A stretch of 18,500 bases of DNA from Oxalobacter sp. (GTDB lineage Bacteria; Pseudomonadota; Gammaproteobacteria; Burkholderiales; Burkholderiaceae_D), in the NCBI GenBank assembly GCA_012512465.1, contig JAAZED010000059.1:1-18500 (forward strand), in the 5' to 3' direction. Position numbers and translations under genes: made by a program. Shown piece after piece: positions 1,757 to 18,500 of this stretch. The stretch's first letter is position 1. Every line of letters starts with the position of its first letter. The notes under the pieces were generated by a model, which saw only the letters and a list, made by a program, of their open reading frames with translations, was not told the DNA's origin and did not search any database.

Positions 1757-1782
1757 TGAACCGGCTCAAACCATTGATACGT

Positions 1783-1806
1783 AAAACCGGGACAGGACTG
1801 TCCGGG
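1783..1806 (-). terminator. Probable rho-independent terminator of corA
   Basis: Reading on the minus strand just after the corA stop, the sequence CCCGGACAG..CTGTCCCGG folds with one mismatch and a short loop (1787-1806) and is followed by TTTT. The T-run is short, so strength is uncertain. It also sits between two convergent genes. Confidence 0.45.
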
Positions 1807-1810
1807 CAGA

Positions 1811-2773
1811 TTAATTAAGCCAGCCGCGGCGGCGGAAATACCAGAAAGGCGCAACGGCGCTGCCTATCATCAAAAGCAATGCAAAGGGATAACCAAAATC
1901 CCAGCTCAGTTCCGGCAGAATATGGAAATTCATGCCATAAATGCTGGCGATAAGCGTTGGCGGCAAAAAGGCCACGCTGGCAACCGAGAAAATCTTGATG
2001 ATCTTGTTCTGGTTGATGTTGATAAAACCAACCGTGGCATCCATCAGGAAGTTGATCTTATCGAAAAGAAACGAGGTATGACCATCCAGTGATTCAATAT
2101 CCCGGAGAATCTGGCGGGCTTCCTCGAATTGTTCCGAATCGAGAAGCCGTCCCCGCATCAAAAAGCTGACCGCCCGCCGGGTATCCATCATGCTGCGCCG
2201 GATACGGCCATTCAAGTCTTCTTCCTTGGCAATGGCGGAAAGCGTTGCTGCCGCATCCTGGTCCGTGAAAGTTTCCTGCAAAACGCGAATACTCACATCT
2301 TCCAGATTGCGATAGATGCCTTCCAGCGCATCGGCGGAATATTCGGCATCCGTTGCATACAGATCAAGGAGAACATCCTTGTAATCCGTGATGGAACCAG
2401 GCCGTGAACGCGCACGCATCCGGACCAGACGAAATACCGGGAGATCCTCAGGATGCACGGAAAACAGCATCCCGCGGGCCAGGATAAATGCAACCGTTAC
2501 CGTCTGCGGCCCTTCTTCATCATCAATACGGAAGTCTGTCCTGAGATGGATATCACCATTTTCCGCTTCGTAATAACGGGCAGAGGCTTCAATATCCTTG
2601 ACCTCATCCTCATCCGGCATGGTGACGCCAAAAATATTTTTGACCCACAGGCGCTCATCTTCGGTAGGTGAGGTCAGATCAACCCAGACAGGCGCGACAT
2701 TTTCCAGGTCCGCCTTGGAATCAATCGGAACCTGGCTTAAACGGCCATTCTGCAAGATAAACACATTGATCAT
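1811..2773 (-). CDS. corA: CorA-family magnesium/cobalt transporter
   Basis: Inner-membrane divalent cation channel, 320 residues, normal for CorA. The first ~250 residues form the cytoplasmic alpha/beta and long-helix domain. Two membrane segments lie near residues 262-280 and 296-313, and the family signature Gly-Met-Asn (YGMNF, residues 279-283) closes the first. The C-terminus is basic (FRRRGWLN), as usual on the cytoplasmic side. I chose the ATG at 2773 because it gives the typical start MINVFILQNGRL and has a weak AAAGAA upstream; an in-frame GTG at 2803 would add ten unconserved residues without a ribosome site. The gene is separated from mtgA by 170 bases holding a possible promoter, two hairpins and an upstream ORF, so it is probably transcribed and regulated separately. 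Confidence 0.93.
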   Translation of the reverse strand: MINVFILQNGRLSQVPIDSKADLENVAPVWVDLTSPTEDERLWVKNIFGVTMPDEDEVKDIEASARYYEAENGDIHLRTDFRIDDEEGPQTVTVAFILARGMLFSVHPEDLPVFRLVRMRARSRPGSITDYKDVLLDLYATDAEYSADALEGIYRNLEDVSIRVLQETFTDQDAAATLSAIAKEEDLNGRIRRSMMDTRRAVSFLMRGRLLDSEQFEEARQILRDIESLDGHTSFLFDKINFLMDATVGFININQNKIIKIFSVASVAFLPPTLIASIYGMNFHILPELSWDFGYPFALLLMIGSAVAPFWYFRRRGWLN

Positions 2774-2822
2774 GAGGAATTCTTTCAGGTAATCCTGAAC
2801 CACATGACAAAAAACCCGTCAT
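2721..2822 (-). CDS. Possible 33-codon leader ORF overlapping corA start
   Basis: An ATG at 2822 follows AGGGGG with 5 bases between, a far better ribosome site than corA's own. It opens a 33-codon frame, beginning MTGFLSCGSG, that runs across the corA start codon in another frame and stops with TGA at 2723-2721. This resembles in layout the corL leader ORF described for Salmonella corA, whose translation affects transcription termination in the leader. I see no sequence similarity to claim. Seen: ribosome site, frame and overlap. Inferred: regulatory role. It may be chance. Confidence 0.3.
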   Translation of the reverse strand: MTGFLSCGSGLPERIPHDQCVYLAEWPFKPGSD

Positions 2823-2823
2823 G
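2784..2823 (-). promoter_or_regulatory. Two tandem hairpins in the corA leader
   Basis: Two perfect inverted repeats lie just upstream of corA: 2784-2799 (TTCAGG-ATTA-CCTGAA) and 2803-2823 (CATGAC, nine-base loop rich in T, GTCATG). They flank or include the leader ORF start. They could pair the corA or leader-ORF ribosome region; function is inferred only. Confidence 0.3.
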
Positions 2824-2893
2824 CCAGCCCCCTGTCAGCGCAGGCCATTCTTTTTCAAAAGAAATAACCGGCTAACACCCATGGAAAAAGGCA

Positions 2894-2922
2894 AGTTTAC
2901 TGACATCAAACGACAGAGGCAA
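2894..2922 (-). promoter_or_regulatory. Weak candidate sigma-70 promoter for corA
   Basis: On the minus strand TTGCCT (2922-2917), a 17-base spacer and TAAACT (2899-2894) match each consensus hexamer at four of six bases. It would give a leader of about 110 bases that contains the leader ORF and both hairpins. Weak but well spaced. Confidence 0.28.
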
Positions 2923-2943
2923 GCTTTTACTGATTCCGGCGCA

Positions 2944-3699
2944 TTATTTTTTACGGCCCGATACCGCCTTTTTCGGCGGCGGCAAGGGCTTTTTCGGCAG
3001 CGCGGCAGACCCCATCCTTCGCAGGATAATCTGTGTGCGCTGAGCCAGGTAACTGGAATCCCTGAGCGTACCGTAATAACGCGGATTGGGCAGCATGACG
3101 GCGAGTCTGGCCGCCTGCTCAGGCCCAAGGCCGGCTGCGGATACCCCGTAATAATGCCGTGCAGCAGCTTCCGCGCCAAAAACCCCGCGGCCAAACTCAA
3201 CCACATTCAGGTATATCTCGAAAATCCGTTCCTTGTCCATCAGGAACTCCAGCATATAGGTGATGATCAGCTCCTGCACCTTCCGAAAATAACTCCGGCT
3301 CCCGGAAAGAAACAGATTTTTGGCCAACTGCTGGGTAATGGTTGATCCTCCGGCAACCACTTTTCCCTTCTTCAGATTTTTTTCATAAGCCCGCATCAGG
3401 GCCTCCCAATCCACCCCTTCATGGGCAGAAAAATTGGCATCTTCCGAGGCAATGATGGCACGCTTCAGATTTCGTGATATCTGGTTATAAGGTACCCATT
3501 TATGTTTGAGTTCTGCCTTGGGGTTATTTTTTCTGAGAACCGCCAGTTGCTGACGCATGAAGCTGGTCGACTCAGGATTGAACTTGACCCACCAGGCTAT
3601 CTGGCAGAAATAATACAGCTGGATCAGAAAAAAAAAGGCAACCGGCGCAAGAAGTATCCAGTAACGGTATTTTTTTACCCAGGCGAAAAATGACTTCAT
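2944..3699 (-). CDS. mtgA: Monofunctional peptidoglycan glycosyltransferase
   Basis: Polymerises lipid II into glycan strands at the periplasmic face of the inner membrane, without a transpeptidase domain. The 251-residue length is normal. A single membrane anchor spans about residues 13-34. Family GT51 motifs follow in order: [12 protein letters not shown] with catalytic Glu86, [15 protein letters not shown] (118-131), the RKVQE segment with Glu143, and [20 protein letters not shown] (157-175). The start ATG overlaps the aroE stop by four bases (ATGA, 3696-3699), so translation of the two is probably coupled. The C-terminal tail is lysine- and proline-rich ([12 protein letters not shown]). 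Nothing is missing from the catalytic core. Confidence 0.96.
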
Positions 3700-4517
3700 G
3701 CTGCCTGCGACCTCAAGGCAGAAAATACCGGCTCCGTGGCCGGGCGCACCCCCCGCCAGAGAAAAAAGGATTCTGCCGCCTGCTCAACCAGCATGCCAAA
3801 ACCATCGCGCACGACAGCACCATGCGTTGCCGCAAAATCCAGAAAAGGCGTCGGTCTGTCACCATAAACCATATCCAGAGCCAGTGCAGATGGCCTGAAA
3901 ACGGCAGCCGGCACAGGCGGCATCTCATTACTCAGCCCTGCTGAAGTCGCATTGATAATGATATCGAATGGCTCCTGCAATGCAGCGTAGGCGGAAACAT
4001 CCACTTTGCCGGCAGACGAAAAAAAGTCAGCCAGTTCCCTGGCATTATCCACACTGCGATTGGCAATCATCAGTCTTGCCGGACGCAGCGCCAAAAGCGG
4101 CTGGATCACGCCGCGCGCCGCGCTGCCGGCTCCCAAAAGCAGGACACGGGCACCCGCAACCGGATAACCGGCATTTTCAACGATATCCACCATCAATCCC
4201 TTGCCATCCGTATTGTCGCCAATGATGATGCCCTCTTCGAATTTCAGGGTATTCACCGCGCCTGCAGCCTGTGCTCGCGGCGTCAATGACGTGGCAAGCT
4301 TAAAAGCCTCCAGCTTGAATGGTACGGTCACATTCAGGCCTTTGCCGCCTTCAGCAACGAATTGCATAACGGTTGCCTCAAAACCATCCAGAGGGGCAAG
4401 CAGATGCTGATACCGCATATTCTGATGCGTCTGCATGGCAAACAGGGCATGAATGTCCGGTGACTTGCTGTGCGCAACCGGATTTCCTATAACAGCATAA
4501 CGATCGGGGGCAGACAT
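3696..4517 (-). CDS. aroE: Shikimate dehydrogenase (NADP)
   Basis: Reduces 3-dehydroshikimate to shikimate in aromatic amino acid biosynthesis; cytoplasmic; 273 residues, normal. The substrate domain shows [14 protein letters not shown] (7-20), NVTVPFK with catalytic Lys68, and GDNTDG with Asp104. The nucleotide domain shows the glycine-rich loop [10 protein letters not shown] (127-136) and the NADP-preferring start NRSxxxAR near 153. NATSAGL and the C-terminal [13 protein letters not shown] are also typical. Start ATG at 4517. It lies 41 bases after the TonB-family gene and overlaps mtgA by four bases. aroQ, another step of the same pathway, is on the opposite strand about 6 kb away. Confidence 0.97.
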
Positions 4518-4558
4518 ATGGCAATTCCTGAACAGGTAATAGTTAAAGCGGGCCAGCC

Positions 4559-5437
4559 TCAGGACTCGGTTTCCAGCGCTTCATCCCGGGTAAAGCGGAA
4601 GCGCGTTTCGATAACCCAGACCTCGCTTGCGATCGCAGAACGCATTTTGGGCGGAAACGGGCCAAAAGGCGCCGCCCTTCGGACAATCCGCAATGCGGCA
4701 TTGTCAAGCGCAGCATTGCCGGACGATCTTTCCACCCGGGGTCCCCCCTCTTTTTCGTAGAGTGTGCCATCCTGTGCAACCGGAATAGTGACCACCAGTT
4801 CACCATAGAGTTTCCGGCCATTTCGCTGCGGAAAATTCAGTGTACCGATATTTTCAATTTTCCGCTGCATGGATTTGTAATACATGGCGTGCCCGACTTC
4901 CCGTGTCCGCGGAGAAATAAATACCTTTTTGGGACGGCCGGCCTGCTCTGAAATCGTGCGGTCAATTGCAGCGGCCCGCCCCGCAACCCCTTGCTGGCTG
5001 TCGGTCTGTGTCGTGACACCGGCATCACCGGATTCGTTTGCCGATGGATTTTCCCTGACCTGCGGCACGCTGGTCTTTAGCTCATCCTTCAGTTTGGCGG
5101 CCAACTGTTTTTGTTCTTTTTGCAATTCTTCTATCCGGCGCTGCGATGAAGCCAGCACATCCCCATCAGCAACCCGGCTGGAATCAGGTAACGGTGAACT
5201 GGGCCGTCCTTTCTCTTTTGTTCCACCGCCATCCAGATTGGCCTGGGCAACGGCGTCAGGATGTAAAGGCGCGCCTTTGGCCTTGGCATTCACCAGCACG
5301 ACTTCCAGGGTGGGATCGGGCGGCACGATATGAAAGGCACGGGGAGGGACAAAACGGACGAACATCAACATGCCGTGTACCAGTACTGATACAAGGATCG
5401 CATAACCTAATGCACGGTTTTGTAGGAAAAAACTCAA
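4559..5437 (-). CDS. TonB-family protein (energy-transducer-like)
   Basis: A cell-envelope protein of about 292 residues with the architecture of TonB. An uncleaved N-terminal membrane segment (about residues 8-30) carries the SxxxH signature (SVLVH, Ser17 to His21) that in E. coli TonB contacts ExbB/ExbD. A periplasmic linker follows, with a short charged coiled-coil stretch (IEELQKEQKQLAAKLKDEL, about 98-116). The C-terminal ~90 residues fit the TonB_C fold (GELVVTIPVAQDG, then ALDNAALRIVRRAAPFGPFP). No exbB, exbD or receptor gene is nearby, so its partner is unknown. I prefer the TTG at 5437, because GGAG lies 8 bases upstream; a TTG at 5458 has no such site. No ATG is available before the membrane segment. 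Confidence 0.82.
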   Translation of the reverse strand: MSFFLQNRALGYAILVSVLVHGMLMFVRFVPPRAFHIVPPDPTLEVVLVNAKAKGAPLHPDAVAQANLDGGGTKEKGRPSSPLPDSSRVADGDVLASSQRRIEELQKEQKQLAAKLKDELKTSVPQVRENPSANESGDAGVTTQTDSQQGVAGRAAAIDRTISEQAGRPKKVFISPRTREVGHAMYYKSMQRKIENIGTLNFPQRNGRKLYGELVVTIPVAQDGTLYEKEGGPRVERSSGNAALDNAALRIVRRAAPFGPFPPKMRSAIASEVWVIETRFRFTRDEALETES

Positions 5438-5539
5438 ATATCCTGCTCCGCGATACAACCGGCAGGGATGCCGGAAAAAAAACAGAAGCGCTCTCGCAAC
5501 TTACGGCTATTTTAATGTGAATTTGACAGTCAAAAACGG

Positions 5540-7489
5540 CTAATCCACAATTTCATCCTCTGATTCTGCCATATTCTCATCCGCAGTAACAGCAGACACT
5601 TCAACAAGGCGGGCTTCAACAGACAGATCAACTTCATCCCATCTGAGCAAATCAAGGGTTACCTGTGTCCCACGTCCCAGTGTGCGGACTGCAGGTAAGG
5701 GGATAGTCAGCGGAATATCCAGCAATTGAACCATTTCATCCCGAATAACCACCGCCCTGGCCTGCCGGACATCATGCTGGGAGAGCCAGCGCAAACACCA
5801 GTATCGTTCCATTTTTGTCTGGAATTCAGCATAAATCGTATGGGCGGAATCAAAAGCGCTGACAATGGCAAAAAGATCGGCATCCCTGGGTTTGAATGGC
5901 GCAGAAAGGGGGGCGGTCACACCGTGTTGAATGCAGGCCAGAATCTGCCATTGGTTGACCAGATCCGTATAACGCCTCAGGGGTGATGTGCTCCAGGAAT
6001 ACTGATCGACCCCCAACCCCTGATGCGGTGCTGCATGTGTCTGCATACGTACTAGGCGACGAGCCGCCCATGAGCCATTACCCTCTCCCTGACTGCGGTA
6101 AATACCGGGAACACCATGCTCCTGCATCAGGCGTCCCCAGGTACTGTTTACAAAAATCATCAGTTCAGCCACGATCCGGTCCAGTGGCGCCGTGCGCATC
6201 CGCTGCTCGATGGTAACCAGGCCATCGTGTAGATAAAAACTGTAATCCGGGTGATTGGCCTGTTGCGGTTTCAGGCCAAAACTTTCCCGCTTTGCCATAC
6301 GCACTTTTTCCCTCGCCTGCGCCCAGCACCAGAGGATGCCAATCTCCTCTTTGTGCGGATATTCCCCTTTGTTTTCAGCCAGATTTTCTTCTGTCACAAT
6401 GTGCTCAAGATCGTTGAGCCGTAAATTGACAGCAACCTGGATGAATTCCAGGCAGGTTTCCGTTGCGAGCAGTGTACTGTCTTCCTGATTAATGGTGGCA
6501 TACAGACTGACGGCCGGCCTTTTTTCACCTGCCCCCAGCGTAAAAACACGCACATAATCATCCGGCAGCATGGTGATCTTGTCCCCCGGCATATACACGG
6601 TTGCCATTCGCTGGCGGGCAACCGCATCAATATCATCTCCCGGCATCATGCCGAGTGCCGGTGCGGCGATATGGATACCGACTTTGACATTCCCGTCGGG
6701 CAGGCGGGTAACGGAAAACGCATCATCAATTTCTGTTGTCGTGACATCATCAATGGAAAAAGCCTGGACATCTGCTACCGGCAAATCCGGAATCGGCACC
6801 GTGATTTTCTCAAAAGGAAAACCGGTCCCTTTCGGGAAATGCTCAAAAAGGAAACAGGACAGGTGCAGATCAAACGGGGAAGCCACGGCACCCGTTTTAA
6901 TCATCAGCCGTTCAGGCGTTGTCTGAAGTTCGGTGCATGCCTGGGTCAGCGCCTTGTATTCCATTCCGTTTTTATCCGGCTTGCACAACAACTGGATGGC
7001 AAGCGGCTTCATCGCCTCCGGGAAAACACCTGTCTTCATCTGCTCGACATACTGTTCCTGGATGATGGCCAGCTGGCGCTTTTTTTCTATGCTGGCCAAA
7101 GCGGCTTTCAGGGATTTTTCCGGTGCCGCCTTATAGCGTCCCTTGCCTTTCCGGTAAAAATATACCGGTGCGGCATGCAACCGGAGTAAAAGACCTGCGG
7201 CTTCCTGTGGCCGGGGCTCATGGCCGAAGTACTCTGTACCCAGTTCGGTAAAGCTGAATTCGGCTTCCCCCGCCACTTCCCAGAGAAAATCCAGGTCAAT
7301 TTCCCCGGCAATTTCCTGTGCCTCTGACATCAGTTGCACCGGGTCATAGGCCTCATACTGCAACAGCACATCCCTTGCTCTGACCTTGGTTCGTTTCCCG
7401 CCGGGAAGCTCCACCTGGTAGGCTTCCCCGACCTGGGCCAGCACACTGCCGGTCCTGAAATCACCGGATTCTTCAAAAAATAAATTCAT
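5540..7489 (-). CDS. RNase II-family (RNB domain) exoribonuclease
   Basis: Predicted 3'-5' exoribonuclease of 649 residues. The N-terminal ~200 residues are not the usual cold-shock domains of RNase II/R, but match what I know of the shorter RNB proteins of Burkholderiales. The catalytic RNB motif is at about 245-258 (FSIDDVTTTEIDDAF): Asp247, Asp255 and Asp256 match metal ligands, while the position of E. coli RNase II Asp207 is Glu253. Later TSPLRRYTDLVNQW matches the conserved TSPIRRYxDL box. The last ~70 residues could be an S1-like barrel, unclear. ATG at 7489 gives MNLFFEESGDFR; an upstream TTG at 7510 is less likely. It lies 74 bases after the esterase gene, probably in the same transcript. 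Too diverged to call rnr or rnb. Confidence 0.88.
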   Translation of the reverse strand: MNLFFEESGDFRTGSVLAQVGEAYQVELPGGKRTKVRARDVLLQYEAYDPVQLMSEAQEIAGEIDLDFLWEVAGEAEFSFTELGTEYFGHEPRPQEAAGLLLRLHAAPVYFYRKGKGRYKAAPEKSLKAALASIEKKRQLAIIQEQYVEQMKTGVFPEAMKPLAIQLLCKPDKNGMEYKALTQACTELQTTPERLMIKTGAVASPFDLHLSCFLFEHFPKGTGFPFEKITVPIPDLPVADVQAFSIDDVTTTEIDDAFSVTRLPDGNVKVGIHIAAPALGMMPGDDIDAVARQRMATVYMPGDKITMLPDDYVRVFTLGAGEKRPAVSLYATINQEDSTLLATETCLEFIQVAVNLRLNDLEHIVTEENLAENKGEYPHKEEIGILWCWAQAREKVRMAKRESFGLKPQQANHPDYSFYLHDGLVTIEQRMRTAPLDRIVAELMIFVNSTWGRLMQEHGVPGIYRSQGEGNGSWAARRLVRMQTHAAPHQGLGVDQYSWSTSPLRRYTDLVNQWQILACIQHGVTAPLSAPFKPRDADLFAIVSAFDSAHTIYAEFQTKMERYWCLRWLSQHDVRQARAVVIRDEMVQLLDIPLTIPLPAVRTLGRGTQVTLDLLRWDEVDLSVEARLVEVSAVTADENMAESEDEIVD

Positions 7490-7502
7490 GCAACATTTTT
7501 CT

Positions 7503-7522
7503 GAAAGCAAAAAACTGCTTTC
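7503..7522 (-). other. Intergenic hairpin between yqiA-like and RNB genes
   Basis: A perfect 7-base inverted repeat (GAAAGCA, six-base loop, TGCTTTC) lies in the 74-base gap. No T-run follows on the minus strand, so it is not a standard terminator; an RNA processing or stability element within the operon is possible. Confidence 0.3.
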
Positions 7523-7563
7523 CGTTAATTCTTCAATGACACGCTTTCATCACAACTTCCTGC

Positions 7564-8139
7564 TCAGACTGGCTGCAGACCGCCAAACGCCAGAATCTCA
7601 TCCAGATAATCCGGAAACTCTGACAGACTGTGATCACTGCCGTCGATGATAATCTGGCGTGCCTTTTCGTAATGCGCACACATTTGCCGGTAATCCAGTA
7701 ACTCATCTCCTGTTGCGGCAATCAGAAAATACCGCTCCGGCCGGGTGATCCTGCGCACCTGAAACCGGCGAAGCTCATCGGCATATTTTTCCCTGTCCAT
7801 TTCCCAATCTGCCAGCTCAAGCGTATCAGGCGGATTGTCCGTGCCTGCCTTGACATGCCAGGGATCAACCACCGGATTCAACAACACCGCCTTGCATCCG
7901 GTCCTTTCTGCCAGAAAAGTGGCATAGTACCCTCCCAGCGATGATCCGATCAATAAAATCCTGGCAGGATCATGTCCCTCCATCAGCTGGGATGCCAGTG
8001 AAACCGACGAAAAGGGCGACTCCGGGAGCTGCGGGCAAAAAAACCGGCCGGACAAACCCTGCCTGCTCATATAATCTGCTGCTGCCTGTGCCTTGAAAGA
8101 AGCGGGGGATGAGCGGAACCCATGGAGATACAAGATCAT
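7564..8139 (-). CDS. yqiA: YqiA-type alpha/beta-hydrolase (esterase)
   Basis: Small alpha/beta hydrolase of 191 residues, the usual size for the YqiA/UPF0227 family of short-chain esterases; the natural substrate is not known. The oxyanion region LYLHGFRSSP opens the protein. The nucleophile elbow is GSSLGG, with Ser67 as nucleophile. GDELLDY (144-150) holds the probable acid, and GSDHSLSEF the catalytic His170. The start ATG overlaps the mpl stop by four bases (8136-8139), so the two genes are likely translationally coupled. No signal peptide, so cytoplasmic. Its place between mpl and an RNB nuclease is a conserved neighbourhood in related bacteria, but it does not reveal the role. Confidence 0.88.
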   Translation of the reverse strand: MILYLHGFRSSPASFKAQAAADYMSRQGLSGRFFCPQLPESPFSSVSLASQLMEGHDPARILLIGSSLGGYYATFLAERTGCKAVLLNPVVDPWHVKAGTDNPPDTLELADWEMDREKYADELRRFQVRRITRPERYFLIAATGDELLDYRQMCAHYEKARQIIIDGSDHSLSEFPDYLDEILAFGGLQPV

Positions 8140-9539
8140 GGTGATACCGCTTTCGAATGAATCCTGTCGAGGATTTTCTGGTGCACATTGCCAAACCCGC
8201 CATTACTCATCACCAGAATATGATCGCCGGGCCGGACTGCTTTTACGATGCTTTCCACCATTTTCTCCAGATCATGATATGCCACCGCTTTTTCAGCCAG
8301 GGGCAAAAGCGCCTCGCCAAGATCCCAATCCAACGCATCTTTTCCGGATAATGCGCCATAGCCGAACACCAGATCGGCTTCCTTGAGGCTTTCCGGCAGG
8401 GCCTCTTTCATGGCACCCAGCTTCATGGTGTTGGAACGCGGTTCCAGCACGGCAATAATCCGGGCCTGATCGGAAGACGGTCCCACTTTCTTGCGCAAGC
8501 CTGCCACGGTGGTTGTAATGGCCGTCGGATGATGCGCGAAATCATCATATACCCGGATGCCGTGAGCCTCCCCGCGCAACTCCATTCTTCGCCTGACATT
8601 TTTGAAGCGCGAAAGCGAGGCAATCGCCACTTCAGGCACAATACCCACATGCCTGGCTGCGGCAATAGCGGCAAGCGCATTCAACCGGTTATGCTCCCCG
8701 GTCAATTCCCATGATACTGTTCCCTGTATTTCTCCATTAAACAGCACATCAAAAGTCAGCGCGTCACGTTCTTCAAAGGTCCAGCCATCCGGCATCGGCC
8801 CGCCAAACCAGACCTTTTCACTCCAGTATCCCTTCTCAAGAACCCGCGCTAAAGCCGGCTCGCGCGCATTGACAATCAGTTGCCCGTTTCCGGGAACCGT
8901 CCGGACAAAATGATGAAACTGGGTTTCTATGGCACCAATATCCGGAAAAATATCAGCATGGTCAAATTCCAGATTATTCAGGATGGCCGTTTTCGCATGA
9001 TAGTGGACAAATTTGCTGCGCTTGTCAAAAAAAGCCGTATCGTATTCGTCTGCTTCAATCACAAAAAACGAAGAGGGTCCGGCGTTGCCGCCAAGCCGGG
9101 CAGAAATGCCAAAATTGAAGGGAACCCCCCCAATCAGAAAGCCCGGCGCATAGCCGGCATCTTCCAACAGCCAGGCCAGCATGGCTGACGTTGTGGTCTT
9201 CCCGTGGGTTCCCGCCACCGCGAGAACCCATTTGTTCTGAAGAATATGCTGTCCAATCCACTCCGGCCCGGACATATAGGGCAGGCCACGATTCAGAATC
9301 GCTTCCATCAGGGGATTGCCGCGGGACACCACATTGCCGATAACGTACAGATCAGGATTGATATCCGTTTGGCCCGCATCATAGCCATGAATCAGCTCAA
9401 TACCCTGCTCCTGGAGCTGGGTGCTCATTGGCGGATAGACATTGGCATCACACCCCGTTACCTTGTGTCCGGCCGCCTTGGCCAGTACGGCCAGCCCCCC
9501 CATGAATGTGCCGCAAATACCCAGTATGTGAATATGCAT
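8136..9539 (-). CDS. mpl: UDP-MurNAc:L-Ala-gamma-D-Glu-meso-DAP ligase
   Basis: Murein peptide ligase: attaches recycled tripeptide L-Ala-gamma-D-Glu-meso-DAP to UDP-N-acetylmuramate in the cytoplasm, returning it to peptidoglycan synthesis. Mur-ligase family, 467 residues. The N-terminal motif MHIHILGICGTFMGG is diagnostic for Mpl against MurC. The ATP loop is VAGTHGKTTTSAM (108-120), followed by EADEYDTAF and the central EHNRLNALAA. The C-terminal domain has YDDFAHHPTAI and LEPRSNTMKLG. The frame is open farther upstream, but those residues are not conserved, so ATG at 9539 is chosen. It diverges from the gene at 9607 across a 67-base gap that must hold its promoter; TAGAAT is visible there but no good -35. 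Confidence 0.96.
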   Translation of the reverse strand: MHIHILGICGTFMGGLAVLAKAAGHKVTGCDANVYPPMSTQLQEQGIELIHGYDAGQTDINPDLYVIGNVVSRGNPLMEAILNRGLPYMSGPEWIGQHILQNKWVLAVAGTHGKTTTSAMLAWLLEDAGYAPGFLIGGVPFNFGISARLGGNAGPSSFFVIEADEYDTAFFDKRSKFVHYHAKTAILNNLEFDHADIFPDIGAIETQFHHFVRTVPGNGQLIVNAREPALARVLEKGYWSEKVWFGGPMPDGWTFEERDALTFDVLFNGEIQGTVSWELTGEHNRLNALAAIAAARHVGIVPEVAIASLSRFKNVRRRMELRGEAHGIRVYDDFAHHPTAITTTVAGLRKKVGPSSDQARIIAVLEPRSNTMKLGAMKEALPESLKEADLVFGYGALSGKDALDWDLGEALLPLAEKAVAYHDLEKMVESIVKAVRPGDHILVMSNGGFGNVHQKILDRIHSKAVSP

Positions 9540-9606
9540 GATGTCATTGTGATTTTTATTAAACCTGAAGATTCTACCCGACTCGCACCATTTTGCGTTC
9601 CAGAGT

Positions 9607-10227
9607 ATGATAATCGCCATGACAAATGATCGCAGAACAGACTGGAACGACATACGCGGCGAGATCGCGATCGCCGCAGCCCGCCTGATTGCCGAAGAAG
9701 GCGCCACCTATGAAATGGCCAAGAAAAGGGCTGCGAGACAAATACTTGGAGATAACAGAATTAACGGGAATTTTCTGCCAGATAATAGCGAGATAGAAGA
9801 AGAAGTTAGAATTTATCACAACATTTTCATGGCAGACACCCAACCGGCACGGCTTTTGTTCCTGCGCAAAACCGCTTTGCATATGATGCAGGAACTGGCA
9901 CAATTCCAACCACACCTGACAGGTGCGGTATTAAATGGCACAGCAAGCGAGCACAGCGATATTCATTTGCAGCTTTTTGCCGAAAGCGCCAAAGATGTTG
10001 AAATTCATCTTTTAAACAAAAATATCGACATTTCAGTTACAGAAGCCGAAAGTTACCGACAGAAAGCGCGAGCTGAGGAAACTATTCATTTTTACCATGA
10101 GGGCGAAATCTTTCATCTCGCTGTGTACAATCCGGACGACATGCGCAAAATGGTCAAAACCACGGATTCACAAGCGGAAAGAGCCGATATCACCCGATTG
10201 AAACAACTCATCGAACAGCAGGAATAG
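9607..10227 (+). CDS. Conserved protein with nucleotidyltransferase-like motif, role unknown
   Basis: I cannot name a function. The 206-residue product has a charged, mostly helical N-terminal ~100 residues (IAAARLIAEEGATYEMAKKRAARQ). A segment follows, LNGTASEHSDIHLQLFAE (about 109-126), that resembles the GSxxxxxSDIDL motif of small nucleotidyltransferases. The second acid of the usual Asp-x-Asp pair is His here (SDIH), so catalysis is doubtful. From memory, similar proteins sit divergent to mpl in other Burkholderiales, sometimes mislabelled as a Mur ligase; nothing here resembles a Mur ligase. Start is ATG 9607, or ATG 9619 (MTNDRRTD); neither has a clear ribosome site. The middle of the gene is more AT-rich than its neighbours. 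No signal peptide or membrane span. Confidence 0.72.
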   Translation: MIIAMTNDRRTDWNDIRGEIAIAAARLIAEEGATYEMAKKRAARQILGDNRINGNFLPDNSEIEEEVRIYHNIFMADTQPARLLFLRKTALHMMQELAQFQPHLTGAVLNGTASEHSDIHLQLFAESAKDVEIHLLNKNIDISVTEAESYRQKARAEETIHFYHEGEIFHLAVYNPDDMRKMVKTTDSQAERADITRLKQLIEQQE

Positions 10228-10343
10228 CGGCATTCGGCAGATTAATCAGGACAGCTCTGGTAAACTAGCTTCTTTTTCTTGCCAGTTACTGCTTTTTAGC
10301 GGCAAAATGCAATCAGATCCAAAATAAATAACAAACGGTACAC

Positions 10344-10778
10344 ATGGCTAAACATATTCTTATGCTCAATGGTCCGAATCTGAATCTTCTTGGCACAAGA
10401 GAGCCGGAAGTGTACGGCAAGACCACACTGAAAGATATCGAGGCTGCCGCCCATGATCTCGTCACACGGGCAGGCGGACGTTTCTCCAGCTTCCAGAGCA
10501 ATCATGAAGGGGCGCTGATTGACCGCATTCAGACGGCCCGCACCGAAGGCGTAGAAGCCATCGTCATCAATCCCGGCGGCCTGACCCATACCAGCGTTGC
10601 CCTGCGCGATGCACTGTCAGGTGTAGCCATCCCATTTTATGAGGTACACATATCCAATATCCACCAACGTGAATCTTTTCGTCACCACTCCTACCTCTCC
10701 GCTATTGCAAAAGGTGTAATATGCGGGTTTGGTATGGATGGCTACCGCATGGCAATTGAATTTGCCCTCAATAACTGA
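10344..10778 (+). CDS. aroQ: Type II 3-dehydroquinate dehydratase
   Basis: Converts 3-dehydroquinate to 3-dehydroshikimate, the step before AroE. A dodecameric, cytoplasmic type II enzyme; 144 residues, normal. The motif [21 protein letters not shown] contains the lid Arg19 and catalytic Tyr24. [28 protein letters not shown], and [16 protein letters not shown] with His102 complete the active site. It begins the aroQ-accB-accC-prmA run; a 116-base gap upstream should hold the promoter, but I see no convincing hexamer pair there. It ends 31 bases before accB. Confidence 0.97.
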
Positions 10779-10809
10779 ATTTTCTTTTCTCGTATTTTCT
10801 GGATTTCTT

Positions 10810-11280
10810 ATGGATCTTCGTAAACTTAAAACCCTGATTGACCTTGTTGCCGAGTCACAGATTGCCGAACTTGAGGTAACAGAAGGCGACAGCCAGGTAC
10901 GTATTGTCAAAAATGCCCCCGCGCCGGCACCCATATTGATGCAGCCGCAAGCCATGCCGCAATATGGGCCCAATGTTGCGCTACCACCGGCAACTGCAGC
11001 TCCTGCGGCGGCACCGGCAGAAGCTGCAGCACCAGCCGAACCACAGGGTCATGTGGTCAAATCTCCGATGGTGGGTACCTTCTACGCGGCATCCGCTCCA
11101 GGTAATCCCCCCTTTGTTGAAGTGGGTGCAACCGTCAGACAGGGAGATACCCTCTGTATTATCGAAGCGATGAAACTGTTAAATGAAATCGAAGCAGATG
11201 TTTCCGGTGTCATCAAGCAAATACTGGTAGAAAACGGGCATCCCGTCGAATATGCCCAGCCGCTTTTTATCATAGGATAA
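10810..11280 (+). CDS. accB: Biotin carboxyl carrier protein of acetyl-CoA carboxylase
   Basis: Carries carboxybiotin between the AccC and AccDA sites in fatty acid synthesis. 156 residues. A short N-terminal domain ([16 protein letters not shown]) is followed by a flexible Ala/Pro-rich linker at about 36-79. The biotinyl domain starts at [10 protein letters not shown] and carries the biotin-accepting Lys122 in [17 protein letters not shown] (94-102) is the 'thumb' of this carrier type. The frame is open upstream to 10729, but ATG 10810 gives the conserved N-terminus; the pyrimidine-rich gap before it lacks a clear Shine-Dalgarno. accC follows after 62 bases. Confidence 0.97.
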
Positions 11281-11324
11281 ATCAGGGGCCAGCCCTCACC
11301 TATCCTTCTTTATCTTTTTGATTT

Positions 11325-11338
11325 TCAGGATGTCCTGA
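11325..11338 (+). promoter_or_regulatory. Palindrome overlapping the accC ribosome site
   Basis: TCAGGATGTCCTGA is a perfect inverted repeat five bases before the accC ATG, and its left arm includes the only Shine-Dalgarno-like AGGA of accC. As a small hairpin it could mask the ribosome site and set the AccB:AccC ratio. The fold is short (five pairs, four-base loop), so the effect is inferred only. Confidence 0.3.
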
Positions 11339-11342
11339 CACT

Positions 11343-12704
11343 ATGTTTGAAAAAATTCTGATTGCCAATCGCGGGGAGATTGCATTGCGTATCCAGCGTG
11401 CATGCCGTGAGATGGGCATTAAAACCGTGGTGGTTCACTCCGAGGTCGACAGGGAAGCAAAATATGTCCGACTGGCCGATGAATCAGTCTGCATCGGACC
11501 GGCACCGTCTGCCGCCAGCTACCTGAATATGCCGGCCATCATCAGTGCCGCGGAAGTCACGGATGCAGAAGCGATTCATCCGGGTTATGGTTTCCTGGCT
11601 GAAAACGCCGATTTTGCCGAGCGGGTTGAACAATCCGGCTTTGTTTTCATTGGCCCGTCACCCGAATCCATCCGGCTAATGGGTGATAAGGTTTCTGCCA
11701 AACAGGCCATGATCAAAACCGGTGTGCCCTGTGTCCCCGGGTCGGAAGGTGCGCTTTCTGATGATTCAAAAGAAATCATTCATACCGCACGAAAAATCGG
11801 CTACCCGGTCATTATCAAGGCTTCCGGCGGTGGTGGCGGGCGCGGTATGCGGGTTGTTCATACCGAGGCTGCGCTGCTGAACGCCGTGACCATGACCAAG
11901 GCAGAAGCCGGAACCGCTTTTGGCAATCCGGAAGTCTATATGGAAAAATTCCTGGAAAACCCGCGCCATATTGAAGTCCAGGTACTGGCAGACCAGTTCA
12001 AAAATGCCATCTGGCTGGGTGAGCGCGACTGCTCCATGCAGCGCCGCCACCAGAAAGTCATTGAGGAAGCGCCTGCACCGGATATCCCGAGGCGCCTGAT
12101 AGAAAGGATCGGGGAGCGCTGTGTGGATGCCTGCCGCAAACTGGCCTTCAGGGGCGCTGGCACGTTTGAATTCCTCTATGAAAAGGGTGAGTTTTATTTT
12201 ATTGAAATGAATACCCGCGTTCAGGTTGAGCATCCCGTAACGGAAATGATTACGGGCATCGATATTATTCAGGAACAGATCCGCATTGCTGCGGGTGAAA
12301 AGCTGCGCTACCGTCAGCGGGACATCAAACTGACCGGCCATGCGATCGAGTGCCGCATCAATGCGGAAGACCCTTACAAATTCACTCCCTCTCCAGGTAA
12401 AGTCACCGCATGGCACGTTCCAGGGGGACCAGGCATCCGTGTGGATTCCCATGTCTATGCCGGCTATACCGTTCCCCCCAATTATGATTCCATGATCGGC
12501 AAGATCATTTCCTATGGTGAGACACGGGAACAGGCGATCCGGCGTATGCAGGTTGGCCTCTCGGAAATGGTGGTGGAAGGCATTCAGACCAATATTGATC
12601 TTCATCGTAACCTGATGTCCGATGCCTGCTTCATTCAGGGAGGGACCAATATCCATTATCTGGAGCAAAAACTGGGCGACATGTTCCAGGATAAACAGAA
12701 ATAA
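11343..12704 (+). CDS. accC: Biotin carboxylase subunit of acetyl-CoA carboxylase
   Basis: Carboxylates biotin on AccB with ATP and bicarbonate. 453 residues, normal. Order: N-terminal biotin-carboxylase domain ([17 protein letters not shown]), the ATP-grasp glycine loop [14 protein letters not shown] (157-170), the HIEVQVLAD strand, [19 protein letters not shown], and the active-site motif [14 protein letters not shown] (288-301) with Glu288, Asn290, Arg292 and Glu296. The C-terminal domain has [13 protein letters not shown] and the FTPSPGK box. ATG 11343 is preceded by AGGAT at a rather long distance. It is cotranscribed with accB, as in most proteobacteria. A large open frame on the opposite strand is a shadow of this gene. 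Confidence 0.98.
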
Positions 12705-12741
12705 TCAGGAATAATCGTATTCCCCTCATCAGGAGCCGTAT

Positions 12742-13665
12742 GTGATCTGGAATGAAGTGGTACTGGAAGTCGATTACACGCAAACGGTCCTTTTTTCGGA
12801 TGCATTGCTGGCTGCCGGCGCCATGGCGGTGACTGTTGAGGACGCCAATGAAGGAACCGATGCCGAGCGCCCGATATTTGGCGAGCCCGGCGCTGACAGT
12901 GAAGAGCATGTATGGCAGCGCAGCCGTGTTATCGCCCTGATTTCTGCCGATACCGATACAAACGCCATTATTTCTCTTGCCGCAGGTGAAAGCGGCATGG
13001 AGACTCCGCCACCTTTCCTGGTACGGGAAGTCCCGCAAAAGGACTGGGTGCGTGAGACACAGGCCCAATTTGACCCCATTCATATCGGGAAAAACATCTG
13101 GGTTGTTCCCAGCTGGCACGAAACACCCACCAGCAACGGCATTGTGCTTGAGCTTGATCCCGGCCTGGCATTCGGCACCGGCAGCCATCCCACAACGCGC
13201 CTGTGCCTGGAGTGGCTGGAAGAAAATGTCAGCCCGGGGCAATCTGTGCTCGACTATGGCTGTGGTTCCGGTATCCTTGCCATTGCCGCTTTCAAACTGG
13301 GAGCCGCAGCTGTAGACGGTGTGGATATTGATCAGCAGGCCGTTATCACCGCGGGTGAAAACGCCGCTGAAAACCAGTGCGATATTGCGTTTTACCTTCC
13401 AGGAAACTATCCGGGAGAGGCAGAAAACCGCCAGTACGATATTGTTGTTGCCAATATCCTGTCAGGCCCCTTGCAGCAACTGGCACAAACGATTGCCTCC
13501 CGTTTGAAACCCGGCGGAAAGCTGGTGCTCTCCGGCATTCTGGACTGGCAGGAAAAAGACGTCATTTCCGCCTATTCTCCCTGGCTGGCTTTATCCCCCT
13601 ATCATTACCTGGATGGCTGGGTGGCGCTGTCCGGTACGCTTGCTGAAAAGGAAAAGCAGGCATGA
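12742..13665 (+). CDS. prmA: Ribosomal protein L11 methyltransferase
   Basis: Trimethylates ribosomal protein L11 using S-adenosylmethionine. 307 residues, normal. The N-terminal recognition domain begins IWNEVVLEVD, typical of PrmA. The linker GIVLELDPGLAFGTGSHPTTRLC (133-155) precedes the SAM-binding motif LDYGCGSGILAIAA (170-183); acidic GVDID (193-197) and VVANIL (235-240, the PrmA form of the NPPY-like motif) follow. The start is GTG at 12742: AGGAG lies seven bases upstream, and the overlapping ATG at 12740 meets a stop at once. It follows accC by 37 bases and overlaps the next gene by four bases (ATGA). Confidence 0.97.
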   Translation: MIWNEVVLEVDYTQTVLFSDALLAAGAMAVTVEDANEGTDAERPIFGEPGADSEEHVWQRSRVIALISADTDTNAIISLAAGESGMETPPPFLVREVPQKDWVRETQAQFDPIHIGKNIWVVPSWHETPTSNGIVLELDPGLAFGTGSHPTTRLCLEWLEENVSPGQSVLDYGCGSGILAIAAFKLGAAAVDGVDIDQQAVITAGENAAENQCDIAFYLPGNYPGEAENRQYDIVVANILSGPLQQLAQTIASRLKPGGKLVLSGILDWQEKDVISAYSPWLALSPYHYLDGWVALSGTLAEKEKQA

Positions 13666-15047
13666 TTCTGGTTACCAAATGCCCCCATTGCCAGACAACA
13701 TTCAGGGTCACGGAAGACCAGTTGAAACTCTATGAAGGTGCTGTACGCTGCGGCGTTTGCCAGCAGATTTTCAACGGAACCGATCATCTTCAGACAGAGC
13801 CTCCTGTCCTGACAGACAAGCCAGCTGCTGTCGAAAAAAAGAAAGCCGCGCCTGCTGCACCGAAAAGCTCACCGGCAACGCCGCAGGATACCCCGGCTAA
13901 AAAAGCTGTCGTACCAAACAAGCCTGTACCAAAACCCGCCCCACCACAACCCAGGCACGAGGCGGATGATATTACGCTCTCGCTTGCTGATGAGGATATC
14001 AATGCCTCATCTTCTGAAAGCGAAGCGCTTTTTGATGCCCTGGAGGAAGAACTCTCCACGATCTCGCTGGAACTGGGACAGGTAACGGGACAGCTTTTCG
14101 GCAATGAACTGGAAGAAATGCCGGAGATCGAAGAAGAGGAACCTGACGCGTTAACACCGGAACAGCCTGTTACGATCAATGAGATCGTCAGTGATGAAGC
14201 CGTCTATACGAAACCGCCAGCACCTGCAGCCACCACCCGTTTTGGCAATCTCTCCCCATATCCCGATCTGGGCGCGCCGGCGAAAAATACGGTTTATTCC
14301 ACAGCGCCCCGACTGGATGATGTCGCAGAAGTCGCGCCATCCACGTCTATTGAAGCGGAAGTGGTAGAGCCGGATGATCCTGCCATATTGCGCCACCAGC
14401 GTTCCCAGCGTCTTTCTTCGCAAAACCGGGAGTTTGATCCATTGATGGACACCGCTGACAGCCATCATGCCGCTTTTTTTGAACTGGCAGAAGAAGATGA
14501 CACAGATGATAATCTGTACAATGAACCCAGCTTCGTAACGAAAGGGCGCAGGAAAAAACGAACCGGGCTTTTCTCGGGCACCTTTGTCACTCTGGCAACC
14601 ATTGCGCTGTTGGGCGCACTTGGTGTGCAGTGCCTGTACATGTTTTCTGACCGTATCGTCGTATGGTGGCCTCCGGCCGAATCCGCCGTGGCAAAGGCCT
14701 GCGACATGTTTGCCTGCCCGAGGCGACTGGAAACCCGCATTTCATCCCTGTCAATCGAATCCAGTGAATTACAGGTGATCCCGGAGCTGGGCGACCGGTA
14801 TACGCTTTCACTCCTTGTCAGAAACAGCGGCTCATCGTACCAGTCATGGCCGCATATTGAGCTGACACTGATGGATCAGGGCAAAAAACCGGTTGTCCGG
14901 CGCGCCTTTTCCCCGGCCAACTATCTGCCGGATGCCAACCGCATTATCAGGGGCATTCCGCCTTATTCAGAAGAATCCGTCAAGCTCTATCTTGAAATGA
15001 AAACCGAATTCAATGCGGATTACCGTATTGCCCTTTTTTATCCTTAA
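13662..15047 (+). CDS. Zinc-ribbon and DUF3426 membrane protein
   Basis: Protein of 461 residues of the zinc-ribbon/DUF3426 type found next to prmA in many betaproteobacteria; function unknown. The N-terminus is an MJ0042-type zinc ribbon with Cys7, Cys10, Cys30 and Cys33 (KCPHC...RCGVC). A long low-complexity region follows, Lys/Ala/Pro-rich at about 50-90 and strongly acidic at about 90-290. One membrane span (about 302-327) comes after a basic patch KGRRKKR, so the ribbon side should be cytoplasmic and the C-terminal ~130 residues (DUF3426) periplasmic. ATG 13662 overlaps the prmA stop by four bases. The C-terminal domain is beta-rich (YTLSLLVRNSGSSYQSWPHI). No enzyme motif is seen. Confidence 0.85.
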   Translation: MILVTKCPHCQTTFRVTEDQLKLYEGAVRCGVCQQIFNGTDHLQTEPPVLTDKPAAVEKKKAAPAAPKSSPATPQDTPAKKAVVPNKPVPKPAPPQPRHEADDITLSLADEDINASSSESEALFDALEEELSTISLELGQVTGQLFGNELEEMPEIEEEEPDALTPEQPVTINEIVSDEAVYTKPPAPAATTRFGNLSPYPDLGAPAKNTVYSTAPRLDDVAEVAPSTSIEAEVVEPDDPAILRHQRSQRLSSQNREFDPLMDTADSHHAAFFELAEEDDTDDNLYNEPSFVTKGRRKKRTGLFSGTFVTLATIALLGALGVQCLYMFSDRIVVWWPPAESAVAKACDMFACPRRLETRISSLSIESSELQVIPELGDRYTLSLLVRNSGSSYQSWPHIELTLMDQGKKPVVRRAFSPANYLPDANRIIRGIPPYSEESVKLYLEMKTEFNADYRIALFYP

Positions 15048-15059
15048 CACCTTACCACT

Positions 15060-15995
15060 ATGTCCTCCTTAATCTGCGGCTCACTTGCTTACGACACGAT
15101 CATGGCTTTTCCTGATCGTTTTTCCGAATCCATCCTGGCAGACCAGTTGCATAACATCAATGTCTGTTTTCTGGTGCCATCCATGCGCCGGGAATTTGGC
15201 GGCTGTGCGGGCAATATTGCCTACAGCCTGAAAATGCTGGGCGGCAATCCGCTGATCATGGCAACAATCGGCACTGACGGCGAACCCTACCTGGAACGGC
15301 TGGCCGAGCTGGATATTTCGCGGCGTCATGTCACGACGGTCAAAAAAACCTTCACGGCACAGGCCTTTATCACCACAGACCAGAACAACAACCAGATCAC
15401 GGCATTTCACCCGGGCGCCATGTCTTTTTCCCACCAGAACAAGGTGGCTGACATTACAGAAAATATTGAGCTGGCAATTGTGGCACCGGACGGGCGTGAT
15501 GGCATGCTGCAAAATGCCGAAGATTGCGCGGCAAAAGGCATTGCGTTCATCTTCGACCCGGGCCAGGGTCTGCCGATGTTTTCCAAAGACGAGTTACGCC
15601 GCTTTATTGAACAGGCAACCTATGTTGCCGTCAATGATTATGAGGCGGCCATGCTGATGCAGGAAACCGGCTGGACGGAAAAAGAAATCGCCTCCCGGGT
15701 AAAAGCACTCATCGTCACGCTGGGGGAACGGGGCGCTGAAATCTATGCCGAGGGAGAAAAAATTGTCATCCCCTGCGTCGAGGCGGGAAAAACGATTGAT
15801 CCGACCGGCTGCGGGGACGCCTTTAGAGCAGGGTTGATCTATGGGCTGACCAATAACAAGGACCTGGCAACCTGCGGTCGGCTGGGCAGCCTGATGGGCG
15901 CAATCAAGATCGCGCATCAGGGGCCGCAAGCACACTCACTGACAGCCGCCGAGATTGCCGATCGCTTTGAAAAAGAGTTTGGTTACCGGTACTAG
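15060..15995 (+). CDS. PfkB-family carbohydrate/nucleoside kinase
   Basis: Ribokinase-like sugar or nucleoside kinase of 311 residues. The first PfkB signature FGGCAGNIAYSLKMLGG is at 46-62. The second, DPTGCGDAFRAGLIYGL (247-263), contains the catalytic base Asp253 and the anion-hole glycines. GTDGEPYLERL and VTLGERGAEIY are also typical. The substrate cannot be told from sequence; from memory, relatives in the same position are labelled adenosine or carbohydrate kinase. It starts 12 bases after the DUF3426 gene and closes the aroQ-acc-prmA run, before a strong hairpin. No ribosome site is obvious. Cytoplasmic. Confidence 0.88.
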   Translation: MSSLICGSLAYDTIMAFPDRFSESILADQLHNINVCFLVPSMRREFGGCAGNIAYSLKMLGGNPLIMATIGTDGEPYLERLAELDISRRHVTTVKKTFTAQAFITTDQNNNQITAFHPGAMSFSHQNKVADITENIELAIVAPDGRDGMLQNAEDCAAKGIAFIFDPGQGLPMFSKDELRRFIEQATYVAVNDYEAAMLMQETGWTEKEIASRVKALIVTLGERGAEIYAEGEKIVIPCVEAGKTIDPTGCGDAFRAGLIYGLTNNKDLATCGRLGSLMGAIKIAHQGPQAHSLTAAEIADRFEKEFGYRY

Positions 15996-16022
15996 GCCCA
16001 GCCTGTGGCAACACCAATGACA

Positions 16023-16055
16023 AATGCACACCTTGTTTAAAACAGGGTGTGCATT
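16023..16055. terminator. Strong hairpin between convergent genes, likely bidirectional terminator
   Basis: A perfect 10-base inverted repeat (AATGCACACC / GGTGTGCATT), extended inward by several pairs, lies between the pfkB-family gene and rpsT, which converge. The hairpin is very stable, but neither side has a long T-run (TT on the plus strand, TTTG on the minus), so termination may be weak or factor-assisted. Position and symmetry support use by both transcripts. Confidence 0.6.
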
Positions 16056-16074
16056 CAGACGATATCCAGATGGA

Positions 16075-16353
16075 TTAAGCGGCTTCTTTTTGAGAAAGCG
16101 CTTTCAAGGCAGCAGCAAGACGACTTTTATGACGGGCAGCCTTGTTCTTGTGAATCCGTTTCTTGTCTGCGATACGATCAATGATTGAAACGGTTTTTGA
16201 GAATACTGCGGTTGCAGCTTCCTTGTCACCTGCTTCAATTGCCTTTTTGACAGACTTGATTGCCGTACGCAGTGAAGAACGCTGGCTGGAATTGTGTGCA
16301 TTCCTTTTCACTGCCTGACGAGCACGTTTGCGTGCCTGCGCGGTATTTGCCAT
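16075..16353 (-). CDS. rpsT: 30S ribosomal protein S20
   Basis: Small-subunit protein S20, binding 16S rRNA. 92 residues, very basic and helical, with the usual start [18 protein letters not shown] and the [20 protein letters not shown] segment. ATG at 16353 is preceded by AGGAT at 16362-16366 on the minus strand. It is monocistronic, with its own promoter 82 bases upstream and a hairpin after it. S20 represses its own translation in E. coli; the leader here has short alternative hairpins that could serve a similar end (inference). Confidence 0.98.
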
Positions 16354-16434
16354 AGTAAAAAATCCTAAAAACCTGTTAAAAATGCGCCCGCATCCAACTC
16401 AAATTGCGGCGCAAAAAATTTTGCGTAGCTTTAT

Positions 16435-16463
16435 ATTGTAATCGCGTTTCACGCTTCTGACAA
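16435..16463 (-). promoter_or_regulatory. Sigma-70 promoter of rpsT
   Basis: On the minus strand TTGTCA (16463-16458), exactly 17 bases, then TACAAT (16440-16435) give a near-consensus promoter: five of six matches in each hexamer. Transcription would start near 16428, leaving a leader of about 75 bases before rpsT. Confidence 0.75.
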
Positions 16464-16497
16464 TGCCTTTACGCGTTTTATTTCAAGCAACTCTGTT

Positions 16498-17412
16498 TTA
16501 TGCGGGAAAAGCACCCATGGAAAGATAGCGCTCCCCCTGGTCGCTGGCAATAAAGACCATCACGGCATCTTCCACCTCACGGGAAAGCTGTAGCGTCATA
16601 TGGCAGGAAGCGGCTGATGAAAGACCGCAGAAAAGCCCTTCCTCCCGCGCCAGCCGTCTTGCCATATATTCGGCATAAGCCTGGCTGACTGTCTCTACCC
16701 GGTCCACCTTGCTTGGGTCATAAACCTTCGGCATATTGGTTGCCGACCATTTCTGCAGCCCTGGAATGCGGCCGGTGACTTCCGGCTCGATGCCGATCAT
16801 CTGGATATCCGGGTTCTTTTCCTTGAGGTACTGTGAAATGCCCATGATCGTACCAGTCGTGCCCATACCGCAAACCACATGCGTCACACGACCACCTGTC
16901 GCCTCCCATATCTCGGGTCCGGTGGTTTCATAATGGGCACGGGGGTTGTCGGGATTAACATACTGGTCAAGTGTAATGCCTTCCCCTTCTGCCACCATTT
17001 TATAGACCAGGCTTCTGGCAAACCCCATGCCGGACTGTTTGGGCGTGAGAATAATTTCCGCGCCGTAAATAGCCATGCACTGCTGCTTTTCCATACCGGT
17101 ATCTTCCGGCATCACCAGGGTGCAGCGATATCCCTTTCTTGCGGCAATCATCGCAAGCGCAATGCCGGCATTGCCATTGGTTGCCTCAATCAATGTATCC
17201 CCCGGATTGAGCTCGCCCCGCGCTTCGGCATATGACACCATGGCATACATCGTGCGATCCTTGACTGACCCGGAAGGATTGTTACCCTCCAGCTTGGCCA
17301 GGATGATATTGTTACGCGCTTCACTTTCTTCACCGGGAAGCGTGACAAGGCGCACCAGTGGTGTGTTGCCAATGGTGTTTTCAATGATCGGGAAAGCGGC
17401 ACTTTTTGTCAT
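16498..17412 (-). CDS. cysM: CysM-like O-acetylserine sulfhydrylase
   Basis: PLP enzyme of the cysteine synthase family, which makes cysteine from O-acetylserine and sulfide or thiosulfate. 304 residues. The PLP lysine is Lys51 in NNPSGSVKDRT; the phosphate cradle is GMGTTGT; the C-terminal GLSSAAS box holds the pyridine-contacting Ser. The residue pattern favours CysM over CysK. The substrate ('asparagine') loop, normally TSGNTG, reads TNGNAG here (78-83), and the next helix is also unusual (MPEDTGMEKQQCM), so substrate preference may differ. Start: ATG 17412 overlaps the recR stop by one base (TGATG); GTG 17415 is an alternative adding one residue. It is likely cotranscribed with recR and ebfC, and ends 35 bases before the rpsT promoter. 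Confidence 0.9.
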   Translation of the reverse strand: MTKSAAFPIIENTIGNTPLVRLVTLPGEESEARNNIILAKLEGNNPSGSVKDRTMYAMVSYAEARGELNPGDTLIEATNGNAGIALAMIAARKGYRCTLVMPEDTGMEKQQCMAIYGAEIILTPKQSGMGFARSLVYKMVAEGEGITLDQYVNPDNPRAHYETTGPEIWEATGGRVTHVVCGMGTTGTIMGISQYLKEKNPDIQMIGIEPEVTGRIPGLQKWSATNMPKVYDPSKVDRVETVSQAYAEYMARRLAREEGLFCGLSSAASCHMTLQLSREVEDAVMVFIASDQGERYLSMGAFPA

Positions 17413-18014
17413 CACGTTGTCTGCCTGTCCAGGAGCGCTCTTGCTATCGTACCAATATCCACATATTCCAGTTCTGCGCCAACGGGAACGCCTCTTGCCA
17501 GACGGCTGACCCTGATACCCCGTGCCTTGAGCATTTCGCTGATGTAATGCGCCGTGGCTTCCCCCTCATTATTAAAACTGGTTGCCAGCACGACTTCCGT
17601 GACCACGCCATCGGTTGCCCTGGCAATCAGCTTGCCAAGATTGATTTCCTTTGGGCCAATGCCATCCAGCGGAGACAGGCTGCCCATCAGAATAAAATAC
17701 AACCCCTTGTAAGCCAGCGTCTGCTCGATCATCAGCATGTCCGCTGGCGTTTCCGTCACACACAGAAGGCTTTGTTCCCGATCCGGGCTCGTGCACATGG
17801 TGCAGACCATCTCTTCGGTAAACGTGTTGCAGCGCTCACAATGCCTGACTTTTTCAATGGCATCTGACAGCGCCATACTTAATTGCCGCGCACCCTCGCG
17901 GTCGTGCTGCAGCATGTGATAGGCGATACGCTGCGCGGATTTCGGGCCGACACCGGGAAGCCGCCGTAATGCTTCGGTAAGTGCATAAAGAGAAAGGTTG
18001 GACTTCACAGACAC
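17412..18014 (-). CDS. recR: Recombination mediator RecR
   Basis: Works with RecF and RecO to load RecA at gaps during repair. 200 residues, normal. The N-terminal helix-hairpin-helix region [21 protein letters not shown] (about 15-35) is followed by a four-cysteine zinc finger with Cys59, Cys62, Cys71 and Cys74. The Toprim domain includes [17 protein letters not shown] and [17 protein letters not shown]. The start is GTG at 18014 (or GTG 18008), seven bases after the ebfC stop; no clear ribosome site, so coupling to ebfC is likely. The cluster dnaX-ebfC-recR is conserved across proteobacteria. Confidence 0.96.
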
Positions 18015-18021
18015 AACGAAA

Positions 18022-18345
18022 CTACATTGGCATTTTAAAACCCGGCGGCAGCGGCAACCCGGCAGAAATACTGTTCATCTTTTCCTGCGCGGTCGCTTCG
18101 GCCTTCCTGACCGCATCATTAAAAGCCGCGGTGACCAGATCCTCCAGCATTTCCTTGTCATCCCCCATCAGTGACGGATCAATGGAAACACGGGACACAT
18201 AAAACTTGCAGCTCATCAGAACGGTTACCATGCCGGCGCCGGCCTGTCCCTCTACGATGGTCTGCGCCAGCTCTTCCTGCATTTTCTGCATGTTCTGCTG
18301 CATTGCCTGGGCCTGTTTCATCAGTCCCGCCAACTGGTTTTTCAT
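18022..18345 (-). CDS. ebfC: YbaB/EbfC nucleoid-associated protein
   Basis: Small DNA-binding protein of the YbaB/EbfC family, thought to shape the nucleoid as a dimer. 107 residues, normal. An N-terminal coiled helix ([19 protein letters not shown]) leads to the beta sheet ([20 protein letters not shown]), a C-terminal helix, and the usual Pro/Gly-rich end [13 protein letters not shown] 18345 follows AGGAT with good spacing and starts 15 bases after the dnaX stop. It is the first complete gene of the dnaX-ebfC-recR-cysM cluster in this window. Confidence 0.95.
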
Positions 18346-18360
18346 TTAATTATCCTGTCT

Positions 18361-18426
18361 TTAAATAGGTTTGATGGAATTCGGCACGATGCTCGCCCCG
18401 AATTCACGTATCAGGCTTTGTACAGC
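18361..18426 (-). CDS. dnaX: dnaX, last 21 codons only (DNA polymerase III tau/gamma)
   Basis: Immediately upstream of ebfC, in one minus-strand frame, the sequence codes AVQSLIREFGASIVPNSIKP plus Ile and a TAA stop at 18363-18361. This matches the usual C-terminus of betaproteobacterial DnaX, and dnaX is the expected neighbour of ebfC-recR. The frame is not DnaX-like beyond about 18426, where it becomes unrelated and meets a stop farther up. The gene is therefore cut by the joint described for the sigma-H fragment. The call rests on a short stretch plus position. Confidence 0.6.
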   Translation of the reverse strand, partial: AVQSLIREFGASIVPNSIKPI

Positions 18427-18500
18427 CCGATCATGCCCTCTTGGATGATGTCTTCCCTGTCTGCTCCGATCAAGAAGTAGGAACGTGCTTTAGCTCTGAC
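18411..18500 (-). pseudogene. sigH: Fragment of Firmicutes-type sigma factor H, fused to dnaX end
   Basis: Reading from 18500 down, a second frame codes 29 residues with no stop until TGA at 18413-18411. It includes VRAKARSYFLIGADRED and, after two residues, QEGMIGLYKA. This is nearly identical to region 2 of Bacillus/Clostridium sigma-H (Spo0H), where the same motif continues into IRDF. Betaproteobacteria lack this sporulation factor. Sigma-H identity ends within 18414-18426, exactly where DnaX identity begins in another frame. Most likely a chimeric assembly joint, less likely a real insertion. The fragment runs off the right edge. Confidence 0.65.

Follow-up and report, generated by a model that had tools for sequence, protein, structure and literature searches.

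The right-hand end of contig C393 is almost certainly an artefact, in which the 3' end of dnaX has been joined to 76 bases of the sigH gene of another bacterium. The contig was analysed as a whole and is called the window here; it is 18,500 bases long, and position 18500 is the contig end. It is an inter-organism chimeric contig: its two sides match different organisms, the same-species genome G012 at 99.18% (1-18424) and Firmicutes bacterium UBA3914 at 100% (18414-18500), and the true continuation is found elsewhere, dnaX being intact in G012 and its body lying on contig C371 of the same assembly. The first-pass annotation, which was made from the letters alone, had proposed a chimera of two organisms at this joint and had warned against counting the sequence to its right as part of this genome. 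Both points hold; the right side matches Firmicutes UBA3914 and the left side the same-species G012.

The source assembly consists of 448 contigs with 2,043,546 bases and has a completeness of 85.39% and a listed contamination of 0.83%. The same-species genome G012 is a single contig of 2,606,300 bases. The genus panel holds 12 other genomes (13 searched including the window's own), and contig DGEY01000031.1 of UBA3914, with 5,145 bases, served as the donor reference. The coordinates of the features at the joint are collected in Table 1.

Table 1. Features around the joint at the right-hand end of the window, with the evidence for each.
Feature	Position	Strand	Evidence
YbaB/EbfC family gene after dnaX, genuine neighbour	18022..18345	-	TIGR00103, 108.9 bits (cut-off 49.45)
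dnaX 3' end (C-terminal codons, stop and a few bases past the stop), genuine side	18346..18424	-	100% to G012; frame VQSLIREFGASIVPNSIKPI and stop
Joint: 11-base GGCTTTGTACA, common to the species' own dnaX and the UBA3914 sigH	18414..18424	.	G012 match ends at 18424; UBA3914 match starts at 18414
Foreign tail; together with 18414-18424 it encodes 29 residues of SigH region 2, open at the contig end	18425..18500	-	Identity to UBA3914; no match in G012

The genuine side is delimited by the alignment to G012, which runs from position 1 to 18424 as a single block (99.18% over 18,425 aligned positions) and stops there. The 473 bases directly left of the joint are identical in both genomes (100%), and beyond 18424 G012 continues with TAAGCA and the window with GCCCGA. 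The DnaX C-terminus lies on the minus strand, ends in ...VQSLIREFGASIVPNSIKPI and a stop, and occupies a frame different from that of SigH. The two minus-strand frames noticed earlier, one for the DnaX C-terminus and one for sigma-H region 2, are both real. Two details of the earlier reading have to be corrected. The sequence shared at the joint had been given as 13 bases (18414-18426), but it has 11 (18414-18424), and bases 18425-18426 belong to sigH only and lie outside the overlap. The 'AVQS'-type DnaX reading is also mistaken, for the genuine DnaX reads ENDAYVQSLIREFGA and 'AVQS' was created by the joint.

The remainder of dnaX was recovered from the window's own genome, in which a TIGR02397 search gave three matches. 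Only one of these is above the cut-off; it lies on C371 as a frame of 571 residues that is still open at C371 base 1, and the two others, both on C239 with about 30 bits each, are weak. On the coordinates of G012, window position 18424 corresponds to 1069280 and C371 base 1 to 1069325, which leaves 44 bases between the two contigs. The G012 dnaX is a frame of 606 residues that begins with MSYLV, includes ...QNAQEKRAARQREAEETIENDAYVQSLIREFGASIVPNSIKPI and runs intact across the joint to its stop. Each of the 12 other genus genomes has about 120 residues of the dnaX end in one piece near a ybaB-like gene (39-100% identity), and none of the 12 gave a SigH match at the dnaX end (E 1e-3, loci of about 3.3-3.4 kb). 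Since dnaX is intact in G012 and the relatives and its remainder is present on C371, the gene has been broken by assembly, and nothing suggests a break in the cell.

The foreign side was identified both by protein family and by nucleotide identity. Read on the minus strand from 18500 to 18414, the sequence translates to VRAKARSYFLIGADREDIIQEGMIGLYKA. These 29 residues match the sporulation SigH families of NCBIfam (NF006148, E 4.1e-16; TIGR02859, E 9.7e-15), with scores that are far under the curated whole-protein cut-offs given the length of the tail, and they reach 24.7 bits for Sigma70_r2 of Pfam against a cut-off of 24. A sequence search of the PDB returned two weak sigma-factor matches, the best with an E-value of 0.1. 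An exact scan of 86 tail bases against a collection of genome contigs, which holds one genome per species and from which the window's own records are perhaps absent, found one record, UBA3914 DGEY01000031.1. Window positions 18414-18500 are identical to this contig in 87 of 87 bases, and the first mismatch is at 18413. In UBA3914 the matching sequence sits inside a full-length SigH frame (DGEY01000031.1:893-1612, minus strand), which scores 407 bits for NF006148 (cut-off 208) and 375.8 bits for TIGR02859 (cut-off 294.8). The sigH of UBA3914 is therefore a full-length gene, whereas the window holds 29 codons only, bounded by the joint and by the contig end. A search of G012 with the same 87 bases returned no match and had no positive control in that genome; a query of the same kind did recover the tail in the window's own genome. 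A full-length sigH frame was not found in the own genome at its completeness of 85.39%, where all four TIGR02859 matches are under the cut-off. The best of them is the 29-codon tail itself (50.7 bits against 294.8), and the remaining three, at 21-28 bits, resemble ordinary sigma factors.

The identity of the donor agrees in part with what had been supposed. A spore-forming Firmicutes source had been suggested, for instance from gut metagenome data, and the first half of this suggestion stands; a gut origin is not needed. PMC10608942 traces the assembly of UBA3914 to an anaerobic-digester metagenome and describes a Limnochordia MAG whose closest relative it is, at an ANI of 99.9%. Whether the donor has contaminated more of the bin than this tail was also considered, and the idea was set aside. 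When the whole UBA3914 contig (one donor contig, 5,145 bases) was searched against the own genome, only two matches were found beyond the tail, one of 95% over 79 bases at the donor tRNA-Met gene and one of 73% that covers about 147 bases of a long coding frame of the donor. Both look like ordinary conservation.

Other contig ends of the assembly were surveyed by comparing 41 of the 448 contigs (C361-C401, the window included) with 2,000,000 of the 2,606,300 bases of G012 (77%), using matches of at least 90%; 13 all-N contigs and four readable contigs unmatched in the compared part of G012 were left out. This left 48 ends on 24 anchored contigs, and six of these ends are unaligned by more than 20 bases. 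The unaligned ends of C383 and C384 face N stretches in the G012 sequence compared, and C383 was dropped as a candidate foreign tail because its G012 counterpart reads N. The unaligned end of C397 matches another place in G012 at 92%. The end of C380 (9136-9257, 122 bases) leaves G012 and has matches of only 77%, at four places, as a repeat-type element or another joint would. The tails of C393 and C399 had no match in G012, in searches that both had no positive control there. Bases 1-144 of C399 hold a KpsF/KdsD-type piece (TIGR00393, E 3.2e-9), after which genuine sequence starts at base 145, with 116 bases past the tail identical to G012; this piece looks like another false tail. On these small counts, from 41 of 448 contigs, false tails would seem to be recurrent in this assembly. 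Two internal differences from G012 were also seen: about 1.7 kb of C385 (3280-5020) has no match of at least 90% in the compared part of G012, and near 9534-9718 C378 has an additional copy of a repeat that is about 170-180 bases long.

The overlap itself bears on how the joint arose. In simulated random joints between G012 (2.0 Mb) and the 5,145-base UBA3914 contig, an overlap of at least 11 bases occurred in 3 of 400,000 cases, so the overlap most likely contributed to forming the joint. Both organisms would have contributed DNA to one sample or library. PCR template switching or ligation at the short overlap may have produced a chimeric molecule or read, with which the assembler may then have extended the contig end where the true dnaX coverage gave out. 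As for the mechanism, our best guess is a chimeric read at a coverage gap, and we favour it clearly over a misjoin in the assembly graph, the cause at read level being inferred. The preference follows from the 11 shared bases, which are few for a word-based join, and from the length of the foreign stretch, whose 76 bases terminate with the contig and are about one short read. The alternative is that no chimeric read was involved and the assembler passed, within its graph, from dnaX words to those of sigH from a co-occurring organism, as the earlier suggestion of a k-mer misjoin implied. This route is a possible but doubtful one. The tail of C399 departs from G012 inside a kdsD/kpsF-type gene, where a longer word could be common to two organisms, and this speaks for it; the overlap at the present joint, however, is only 11 bases, and metagenome assemblers use words longer than that. 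By either route the joint would be an artefact.

That a real insertion or recombination, such as a very recent transfer, put Firmicutes sigH DNA into dnaX is highly improbable. The joint does exist in the assembled sequence. A real insertion, however, would behead dnaX, which is an essential gene, yet the remainder of the gene lies 44 bases away in the same assembly, and a MAG from another phylum matches the tail at 100%. The same junction in related genomes had been named as evidence against a chimera, and it is present in 0 of the 12 other genomes of the genus. A real disruption of dnaX was accordingly rejected, as the G012 gene is unbroken and dnaX continues on C371. A genuine, very recent gain of the spore-former sigH piece within dnaX in a subpopulation, captured by the assembly, is less credible still and may practically be disregarded.

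The dnaX-sigH joint is an ordinary assembly artefact and no real feature, and the sequence right of 18424 should not be counted as part of this genome. Its relevance is limited to quality control, in that the listed contamination of 0.83% misses short foreign tails at contig ends. An automatic annotator could call dnaX truncated or list a piece of a sporulation sigma factor for this species, and dropping everything right of 18424 prevents both misannotations. According to a figure cited in a review (PMC10978663), at least 0.5% of cyanobacterial assemblies contain chimeric contigs. The chimeric contigs of MAGs that this review treats likewise consist of two organisms joined by assembly error; the present case differs in that the foreign part is a tail of 76 bases at the end of a contig, which would hardly show in whole-genome contamination scores.
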